NCBI RefSeq assembly: GCF_026004075.1
Contig: NZ_BPIK01000001.1
Coordinates: 1,280,041-1,344,040, forward strand
Length of the DNA: 64,000 bases
Direction of reading: 5' to 3'
Origin: Meiothermus sp.
Lineage (GTDB): Bacteria; Deinococcota; Deinococci; Deinococcales; Thermaceae
The position numbers and the translations under genes were made by a program. Positions 2,899 through 58,601 of this stretch are shown here, piece after piece. Below the pieces are notes generated by a model that saw nothing but the letters and a program-made list of their open reading frames with translations, had not been told where the DNA came from and did not search any database. Numbering within the stretch: the first letter of the stretch is position 1; the number at the start of each line of letters is the position of its first letter.

Positions 2899-4275
2899 AT
2901 GGAAAGCATCTCTGGAAGTCTTGGCATCGTCGTTCTTCTCATCCTGGTTAATGCTTTTTTCGTAACCGCTGAATTCTCGCTGGTAGCGATTCGGCGCAGC
3001 CGAGTTGAGCACCTAGCCGAAAGTGGCGCCTGGCAGGGCAAGCTGCTCAAAGACGCCATGGCCCGGCTCGACGCCTACATTGCTACCACCCAGCTTGGCA
3101 TCACTGCCACCAATCTGGTTCTGGGGGCTTTTGGGGAACCATACGTCACCCGGTTGATTGTGACGGGTATCGGGGCGCTATTCGGCCAGCCCGGGGCCGC
3201 CGCCGCTGCCGAAAGCGGCCTGCTGTCGAGCCTCGGCTTCGCTTTCTCGGTTATTCTCATCACCTTCGTGACAGTACTTTTTGGTGAGCTCATCCCCAAA
3301 GGCATCGCCCTGCAGCGCACCGAGCAGGTCGCGATGTTCACTATCCTACCACTCAACATTTTCCAGCGGCTTACCGCCCCCTTGGTCTGGCTGTTCAGTC
3401 GCAGCGGCAATTTTTTTCTAAGGCTGATGGGCCTCAAAGAAGCACCCTCGCACTCCATGGTTGGTAGCGCCGAGGAACTCAAACTAATCGTAGAGGCTTC
3501 TTCCAAAGAAGGCGTTCTGGACGAAAGCGAAGGCGAGATCATCAGTCAGATCCTCGACCTCGAGGAAACCCCAGTTCGCTCGATTATGGTGCCGAGGGTC
3601 GATATGGTTACCATATCCGCAGAGGCCACGCTGCGCGAGTTTTGGGCAATGGCCCGTGAGCACCGTTATTCTCGGGTACCGGTGTATCAGGAGACCGTAG
3701 ATAACATCGTTGGAGTGGCCTACATCAAAGATTTGCTCGATTATACCGGCCCGGAACTTGACCAGATTAAGGTGAGCAGTATAAGCCACCCGGCCTATTT
3801 TGTGCCCGAAACCATGGGTGCTCGAGAGCTTTTGCGCGAGATGAGGCGACGGAAGACGCATATGGCCATTGTGGTAGACGAATTCAAGGGCACTGCGGGT
3901 TTGGTTACCCTCGAGGACATCATCGAGGAAATAATTGGTGAAATTTACGACGAGTCTGACGAAGAAGAGGTGGGCCAGGTGCAGCAGATCGCTGAGGGGG
4001 TGTATCTGCTCGATGCCTCGGTACCGCTCGAGGAGGCCTCAAAAGAGCTGGGCATTGAGCTGCCCGAGGGCGAGTACGACACCCTCTCGGGCTTCTTGAT
4101 GAACGAGTTTGGTCATATTCCCGAGGTGGGGGAAAAGCTCGAGTACAGCGGCTATGTATTTATCGTCGAAACCGCCGATCCGCGGGGTATCGAGCGGGTG
4201 CGGGCGCAGAAGAAAACCCCGGAGCCCAGCGACGATGAGACCCTTAGCGAGTCGGTCGCTTCAGAGGAGGCCTGA
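2899..4275 (+). CDS. CNNM/CorC-type membrane protein (hemolysin C family)
   Basis: Membrane protein of the CNNM/HlyC/CorC family, implicated in Mg2+ or Co2+ efflux or sensing. Order: first helix LGIVVLLILVNAFFVTAEFS, typical of the DUF21 membrane domain, with further helices to about residue 170. Then come two CBS domains (about 205-330), with SIMVPRVDMV and THMAIVVDEFKGTAGLVTLEDIIEEIIGEI, and a C-terminal CorC_HlyC domain ending near YVFIVETADPRGIERVR. Start ATG 2899 is chosen; an in-frame TTG at 2875 with a GGGGCGAG stretch upstream is an alternative adding 8 residues. The transported ion is not deducible. Confidence 0.88.
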   Translation: MESISGSLGIVVLLILVNAFFVTAEFSLVAIRRSRVEHLAESGAWQGKLLKDAMARLDAYIATTQLGITATNLVLGAFGEPYVTRLIVTGIGALFGQPGAAAAAESGLLSSLGFAFSVILITFVTVLFGELIPKGIALQRTEQVAMFTILPLNIFQRLTAPLVWLFSRSGNFFLRLMGLKEAPSHSMVGSAEELKLIVEASSKEGVLDESEGEIISQILDLEETPVRSIMVPRVDMVTISAEATLREFWAMAREHRYSRVPVYQETVDNIVGVAYIKDLLDYTGPELDQIKVSSISHPAYFVPETMGARELLREMRRRKTHMAIVVDEFKGTAGLVTLEDIIEEIIGEIYDESDEEEVGQVQQIAEGVYLLDASVPLEEASKELGIELPEGEYDTLSGFLMNEFGHIPEVGEKLEYSGYVFIVETADPRGIERVRAQKKTPEPSDDETLSESVASEEA

Positions 4276-56139: not shown

Positions 56140-57138
56140 CTAGATAGCTACCGGATTTTGCAGCAACTCCGCAATCTGTACAGCATTTAAGGCGGCCCCT
56201 TTGAGGAGTTGGTCGCCTGCAACAAAGAAATCCAGCCCGTTATCGAACACCAGGCTTTTACGAATACGGCCCACTTCTACATTAAATTTGCCGGTCGCGG
56301 TAAGAGGCATGGGATAGCGTCTGGTAGTTGGGTCGTCTACCAGATCCACCCCAGGGGCCGTATTTAGCACTTCTCGAGCAGCATCCGGACTTACCGGTTG
56401 TTCAAACTCAACCGTTACCGCCTCGGAGTGAACCCGCAACGTAGGAACCCGCACTGCCGTGCAGGAAACCCTAATTTGCGAATCCTCCATGATTTTTTGA
56501 GTCTCCCACAGTACTTTCATTTCCTCTTTGGTGTAACCGTTTTCCTGGAAAACATCGATATGGGGGATTACGTTGAAGGGAAGCGGGTGAGCAAAAGTTT
56601 TGTGTTCTATGGCGTGTCCAGCCAAAAATTCTTTCGTGCCCTTCAGCAACTCCTCCATTCCGTTTGCGCCAGCTCCCGAAGCGCTTTGATAGGTGCTCAC
56701 GATCACTCTTTTAGCCCTGAATGCTTTATGTAGGGGGAACAGGGCCATCAGCAAAATAGCCGTGGTGCAGTTGGGGTTGGCGATGATATTTTTGTGGCCC
56801 CGAATGGCGTGTGCGTTGATTTCCGGAACAATCAGCGGCACATCCGGCTCGTAGCGGAAGGCCGAGGAATTATCAATCACCACCGACTGCGTAGCCCAGA
56901 TAGGTGCATACTGCTTGGAGATACTGCCACCCGCGCTTGCCAGCACCACGTCCACCGGCAAAGGGGTTTCGGGCAGGGCCTCTACAGTCAATTCCTGCCC
57001 TCGGAAGAACATGCTTCGTCCTGCAGAGCGCGGCGAGGCGTATAGTCGCAGCTCCGAAACTGGAAAATTGCGCTTTTCGAGTACGTTCAACAGCTCTTTA
57101 CCAACCGCTCCGGTGGCTCCTACGATCCCGACTCTCAT
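56140..57138 (-). CDS. asd: Aspartate-semialdehyde dehydrogenase
   Basis: Makes aspartate semialdehyde from aspartyl phosphate with NADPH, the branch point to threonine, methionine and lysine/diaminopimelate. The 332-residue protein has [18 protein letters not shown] (NADP), [15 protein letters not shown]-like [16 protein letters not shown], the catalytic Cys in [16 protein letters not shown], and [23 protein letters not shown] precedes the ATG. Upstream lie a terminator and a Thr-rich leader peptide. Confidence 0.95.
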
Positions 57139-57154
57139 AGCTTCACCTTTCTAC

Positions 57155-57180
57155 AAAAAAAACCTGCCAGAGCTGGCAGG
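57155..57180 (-). terminator. asd attenuator
   Basis: On the minus strand CCTGCC(AG)-(CT)GGCAGG forms a stem of at least 6 bp followed by eight T residues, 16 nt before the asd ATG, between the leader peptide and the gene. Confidence 0.85.
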
Positions 57181-57206
57181 TAGCGGCAACTCATGCGAGC
57201 CGCCGC

Positions 57207-57236
57207 TTAACTAGTGGTGGTGGTATACCAAACCAT
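57207..57236 (-). CDS. Threonine-rich leader peptide of asd
   Basis: A nine-residue peptide, MVWYTTTTS, with four consecutive Thr codons (ACC ACC ACC ACT at 57224-57213). The ATG is 8 nt after the -10 box, again without a ribosome site. Downstream of the stop an AGCGGC...GCCGCT pair precedes the terminator. The composition fits attenuation by charged tRNA-Thr, since asd feeds threonine synthesis. It also contains the shared TTTGGTATACCA motif (57221-57232). Confidence 0.75.
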   Translation of the reverse strand: MVWYTTTTS

Positions 57237-57244
57237 CTGCTAAC

Positions 57245-57273
57245 AAAATATAGACAACTCGAGCAAAAGTCAA
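57245..57273 (-). promoter_or_regulatory. asd promoter
   Basis: Minus strand TTGACT (57268-57273), a 17-nt spacer and TATTTT (57245-57250), just after the serS stop. A TATATT two bases away is an alternative -10 with a short spacer. Confidence 0.65.

Positions 57274-57293: not shown

Positions 57294-58601
<1,308 letters not shown>

Follow-up and report, generated by a model that had tools for sequence, protein, structure and literature searches.

The asd gene of this Meiothermus strain is very probably controlled by threonine-responsive attenuation, judging from a conserved leader in which a promoter, a short ORF with a run of Thr codons, a hairpin (B), and an intrinsic terminator (T) follow one another directly upstream of the gene. 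The whole statement, i.e., a ribosome-mediated threonine attenuator with antitermination by adjacency of the two hairpins, seems reasonably likely to us.

Architecture and conservation of the asd leader

Within the window (the whole stretch of DNA that was analyzed, 64,000 nt), the interval between serS and asd is laid out as follows:

57268..57273, minus strand: -35 element TTGACT (TTGAC in 23 of 24 leaders, TTGATC in the remaining one), 17 nt from the -10 element here and 17-18 nt from a TAnnnT box in every leader
57245..57250, minus strand: -10 element TATTTT (TAnnnT in relatives), with the start codon 8 nt downstream
57207..57236, minus strand: leader ORF ATG GTT TGG TAT ACC ACC ACC ACT AGT TAA, encoding MVWYTTTTS and a stop, predicted to be leaderless
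57213..57224, minus strand: control codons for Thr, four here and 3-5 in every relative but one
57182..57207, minus strand: hairpin B, 11 bp with a 4-nt loop, the proposed antiterminator
57155..57181, minus strand: intrinsic terminator T, ACCTGCCA-GCTC-TGGCAGGT plus a U8 tract, abutting hairpin B
57144..57150, minus strand: likely asd ribosome binding site AAAGGTG, by inspection
56140..57138, minus strand: asd, aspartate-semialdehyde dehydrogenase, 332 aa, the putatively regulated gene

The first-pass annotation of this DNA had named the promoter, the MVWYTTTTS codons, a terminator with eight Ts, and a distance of 16 nt to asd, and every one of these elements lies where it had been placed: T comprises a stem-loop (57181-57162) and eight T (57162-57155, minus strand), and the asd ATG (57138) follows 16 nt past the end of the U tract. 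Hairpin B (57207-57182) was not part of that description and extends to T from the last base of the stop codon, which forms the outer pair with U57182. From start codon to U-tract end, the leader measures ca. 80 nt and is predicted to have no 5' UTR. The asd protein, which is 88-90% identical to the product of the same gene in other Meiothermus, was assigned to Asd of the aspartate pathway from its sequence and the first-pass call.

A short ORF with a run of end-product codons thus stands upstream of a biosynthetic gene, as expected of an attenuator, and an intrinsic terminator lies between ORF and gene with a promoter upstream of both, as supported by prediction and conservation. Single promoter or terminator elements prove nothing in this regard because chance alone yields promoters of this quality, and likewise terminator-like sites, about as often as they are observed in 3 kb. 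The Thr run is different: it had been called hard to explain by chance, and four Thr in seven codons indeed have a probability of only ~1e-5 to 6e-5 when computed at realistic Thr frequencies. Lack of conservation of the run had been named beforehand as a result that would refute the proposal, and 3-5 consecutive Thr codons are found in 23 of 24 distinct leaders, this one included; we therefore judge the leader to be real and not a product of chance.

By all signs available from sequence, the leader ORF is translated. The Thr run sits immediately before the stop codon (TAA, TAG, or TGA) or one codon earlier, and the residue after it is free to vary (S, A, P, G, R, I, K, or absent). Later Thr codons of the run are ACC (38), ACT (22), ACG (4), or ACA (3), i.e., the first two bases are kept. 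Besides MVWYTTT to MVWYTTTTT, the leader peptides include MSLARTTTT, MNVWYTTTTTI, MQFWNTTTTTK, and MSQRFNNTTTI, and Calidithermus retains TTTT after five initial codons that are entirely different (MSLAR). The leader of the distant relative G003 (L120, G003:C402) encodes MKLASHICNIMITP and a stop, with Ile, Met, and Thr in place of the Thr run; all three are products downstream of Asd, and the sequence suggests that the sensed amino acid may have changed in this leader.

The block ATGGTTTGGTATACCAC (window 57236-57220, minus strand) is identical in 18 species, including the synonymous positions of Val GTT, Tyr TAT, and the first Thr codon ACC, and the palindrome TGGTATACCA lies within it. A DNA-binding repressor at this conserved palindrome, with the Thr run being incidental, would explain why even the third bases of the Val and Tyr codons are kept, yet we consider it extremely unlikely given that the block is single-copy in the genome (no exact second copy of it was found), recurs in G006 at a position shifted one codon away from the start, and is absent in Calidithermus where Thr run and hairpins remain.

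The end of the -10 box and the start codon are separated by 6-9 nt in all 24 leaders, which predicts an RNA 5' end that coincides with the start codon or lies no more than about 2-3 nt from it, so that the leader peptide is expected to be leaderless. At the other end, only 14-26 nt lie between T and asd in most species, which leaves no room for another promoter. Hairpin B has a stem of 10-14 bp in the 24 leaders (11 bp in 15 of them) and starts within the stop codon or immediately behind it, with an outer pair that is often A-U where the stop is TAA and often G-C where it is TAG. Four of its pairs have changed on both sides, and 99% of cells in the alignment are paired. The gap between B and T amounts to 0, 1, 2, or 3 nt in all 24 leaders, and B shares no bases with T. 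Among the other terminators predicted in this material (46 in total), a single one is preceded by a flush hairpin, and that one is doubtful.

Distribution of the leader and metabolic context

Relatives were gathered by protein search, and their asd upstream regions were then read. The module is present before asd in 18/18 genomes of the genus Meiothermus that were searched, in two further genera of the family (g2 and g3, the latter being Calidithermus; loci L011, L013), and, outside the family, in five genomes from families f2 and f3; it is absent upstream of Thermus asd (loci L015 and L103-L110 read) and from the asd upstream regions read in f4 and f5. A covariance model trained on 15 leaders was searched against 111 genomes of the phylum (the class-level and phylum-level sets are identical) and found the module before asd in 27 of them at E<=0.001, with E values for asd leaders from 1e-27 to 4e-5. 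The left-out leaders L095/G037, L097/G034, L102/G028, L119/G008, L120/G003, L121/G006, and L122/G005 were all recovered. The only further match at this threshold across the 111 genomes is an ilvA leader, and weaker matches in Thermus and others (E 0.002-1) look like coding sequence or chance hits where inspected, again except for the ilvA leader. No such leaders were found before hom or thrC. A separate scan for leaders with consecutive B and T hairpins was negative for ilvA and leuA of the present genome, but these are soft negatives given that the scanner missed several known asd leaders, partly because of uncovered opposite-strand loci or other stem limits. In searches against Rfam, the asd leader stayed below the gathering threshold for every family including Thr_leader, and no covariance-model match to the T-box riboswitch was found in it.

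Directly upstream of the leader, serS was found in this genome only, with hisF, an apparent glyS, or other sequence in relatives; the leader therefore travels with asd. This bears on a trivial reading of the region in which T would be a plain constitutive terminator of serS next to an unrelated short ORF, with asd driven in some other way. Such a reading gains some appeal from the fact that serS ends at 57294, 20 nt upstream of the leader promoter, and that T is the only terminator between serS and asd in this genome. It is nevertheless very unlikely, as a promoter lies upstream of T with little room for another one downstream, leader and T stay with asd in the other genomes, in which serS was not found upstream, and the Thr run is conserved. 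Control of asd by threonine attenuation through a leaderless peptide, as the first-pass annotation had proposed, is thus supported by comparative sequence data, with Thr run, terminator, and promoter spacing all being kept and the module always standing before asd.

Threonine sensing at asd makes sense metabolically. DapB had no match in 10/13 genomes tested, and the matches in the remaining ones (this genome and two others) are weak (30-39 bits) and fall in frames of 354-396 aa that are longer than DapB. The aminoadipate route to lysine is established for Thermus and is presumably also how lysine is made in these genomes. With most tested genomes lacking DapB, Asd therefore feeds Thr, Met, and Ile.

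Predicted folding and the proposed role of hairpin B

For a classical attenuator like E. coli thr or trp, upstream sequence should pair with the 5' arm of T (T5) when the ribosome stalls. We therefore truncated the RNA at the loop of T, masked the ribosome footprint, and scored the upstream hold on T5, using standard folding parameters at 37-65 °C (three temperatures and three footprints for the asd leaders). For the 24 distinct asd leaders, mean T5 sequestration was 0.02-0.16 with a stalled ribosome and 0.11-0.30 with the ribosome at the stop codon. The trp leaders of the same clade (this genome with MVRTAQVKGWWWPG, G040, G023, G025, G028, G005, G006, and Thermus G051) reached 0.90 stalled versus 0.30 at the stop, four leu leaders 0.93 (ribosome at the first Leu codon) versus 0.10, and the positive control, E. 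coli thrL, 0.64-0.75 versus 0.04. Predicted T formation mirrors these values: it is 0.96 stalled and 0.94 at the stop for asd leaders, whereas trp leaders give 0.51/0.95 and leu leaders 0.35/0.95. An alternative helix using the 5' arm of T is thus seen in the trp, leu, and thrL controls and was not found in the asd leaders. While the overall plan is the same and both the clade trp/leu leaders and thrL are classical by prediction, we consider a classical mechanism at asd quite unlikely, because T5 is barely sequestered upon stalling and the B of each species is built from two arms of its own; by these models, asd would thus have an attenuator without the feature that defines the classical mechanism.

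Two other pairings were considered and dropped. In many species, a pairing of the 5' block GGUUUGGU with T5 can be drawn by eye, but it is weak (mean 0.26 in free RNA), and a ribosome anywhere on the leader would mask it. The 3' arm of B could by eye be paired with the T loop (GAGUUG:CAGCUC) in the nearest relatives only.

With no bases contested between B and T, no switch is expected from simple thermodynamics. What changes in the folds with a ribosome footprint is B itself, which is removed by a ribosome at the stop codon and left largely or wholly intact by one at a Thr codon; the mean energy of structure upstream of T is -0.2 kcal/mol with the ribosome at the stop and -5.4 kcal/mol with the ribosome at the last Thr codon. 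Because starvation requires read-through, B should oppose T, and the opposite logic with B aiding T was rejected on physiological grounds. From this geometry, it is nearly an even call whether B blocks T by adjacency. The ribosome would start at the 5' end of the leaderless RNA and read MVWYTTTTS. With plentiful threonyl-tRNA, it would proceed to the stop codon and open B, whereupon T would form and transcription would end before asd. When threonyl-tRNA is scarce, the ribosome would halt at a Thr codon shortly before it reaches B, and B would stay folded at 0-3 nt from T and may prevent closure of the T base within the RNA exit channel, either alone or wedged against the stalled ribosome, so that transcription would continue into asd. 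Closure of the T base at ca. 8 nt from the growing end would have to pull B into the channel or open its G+C-rich base, and a stalled ribosome on the other side of B would hinder this closure further. If B alone blocked T, read-through from serS would express asd in this genome regardless of threonine; such transcription through the same T favors the version in which B can act only together with the stalled ribosome. In the literature that we searched, we found no precedent for antitermination by hairpin adjacency. We put forward only tentatively that these leaders represent a second attenuator design, in which an 11-bp hairpin that starts from the stop codon and touches the terminator, with no bases in common between the two, would hinder terminator closure by adjacency and would be removed by a ribosome at the stop.

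A different role for B is suggested by its unusually constant length and by its lower stem (GCGRC/GYCGC), which is kept in families with a diverged upper stem. The put RNAs of phage HK022 bind RNA polymerase or a factor, and B might similarly be a recognition or pausing element, with T being controlled via binding of polymerase or a factor or via a pause that lets the ribosome catch up; a polymerase paused by B would be positioned inside T. We view this as unlikely, since the B hairpin of the ilvA leader in G002 has another lower stem (GGCAAC/GUUGCC), no factor is known, and pausing alone leaves read-through with a stalled ribosome unexplained.

Relation to known attenuators

Among known systems, the asd leader resembles the E. 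coli thr attenuator (thrL; Rfam Thr_leader, RF00506) in that a threonine-synthesis gene is preceded by an intrinsic terminator and a leader peptide that carries regulatory Thr codons, and ribosome-mediated attenuation at threonine genes is textbook knowledge from this example. However, the 21 codons of thrL include both Thr and Ile, and its antiterminator overlaps T, while the asd leaders mostly have 8-11 codons with Thr only, are predicted to be leaderless, and show neither an overlap nor an Rfam match.

Closer at hand, the trp and leu leaders of the clade share a short, leaderless-looking ORF with control codons, an arm that starts from the stop codon, and a terminator, but their antiterminator is of the classical overlapping kind; in the trp leaders, its arm begins at the stop codon, at the same position as B in the asd leaders. 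A trp leader is reportedly already described for Thermus since the 1980s. In this genome, a trpE leader outside the window (L198, G000:C1:103000-104000) encodes MVRTAQVKGWWWPG and a stop and has a classical antiterminator plus terminator; similar Trp leaders occur in Calidithermus, g2, f3, and Thermus (MSPFPALWWPG and a stop). Leu leaders with CTA codons lie upstream of leuA-type genes in f2 and f3 (L215-L218; e.g., MKSVVSLFLALNPSRVAA and a stop), also with classical antiterminators. The ilvA leader of G002 (L227/L169, G002:C193, ~3505-3600) encodes MKIQSSTPQIIIF and a stop with three consecutive Ile codons. It resembles the asd leaders in its succession of B and T from the stop codon and in its leaderless spacing but differs in using Ile codons for sensing and was found in one genome only.

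Leaderless leader peptides have been described in Streptomyces lividans for trpL1, leuL, ilvL, and a Thr leader before thrS, the last of which has two Thr and no clear terminator (PMC8079986). For mycobacteria, polycysteine leaderless ORFs (Canestrari et al. 2020, cited in PMC9031893) are described as regulating the translation of genes downstream. These actinobacterial leaders share translation from the RNA 5' end and control codons with the asd leader but belong to other genes and another phylum. According to a 2010 survey, which added Firmicutes, leader-peptide attenuators had until then been demonstrated only for Proteobacteria and Actinobacteria (PMC2965389). We found no description of this asd leader in the literature searched and would file it as a new variant among ribosome-mediated attenuators, with leaderless leader peptides as such already being known from Actinobacteria.

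The asd leader would thereby add a threonine attenuator, and a very compact one, to the Deinococcota as a phylum for which few such systems have been described. If antitermination by adjacency is true, attenuators can work without mutually exclusive pairing, and screens based on competing hairpins would overlook a whole class.
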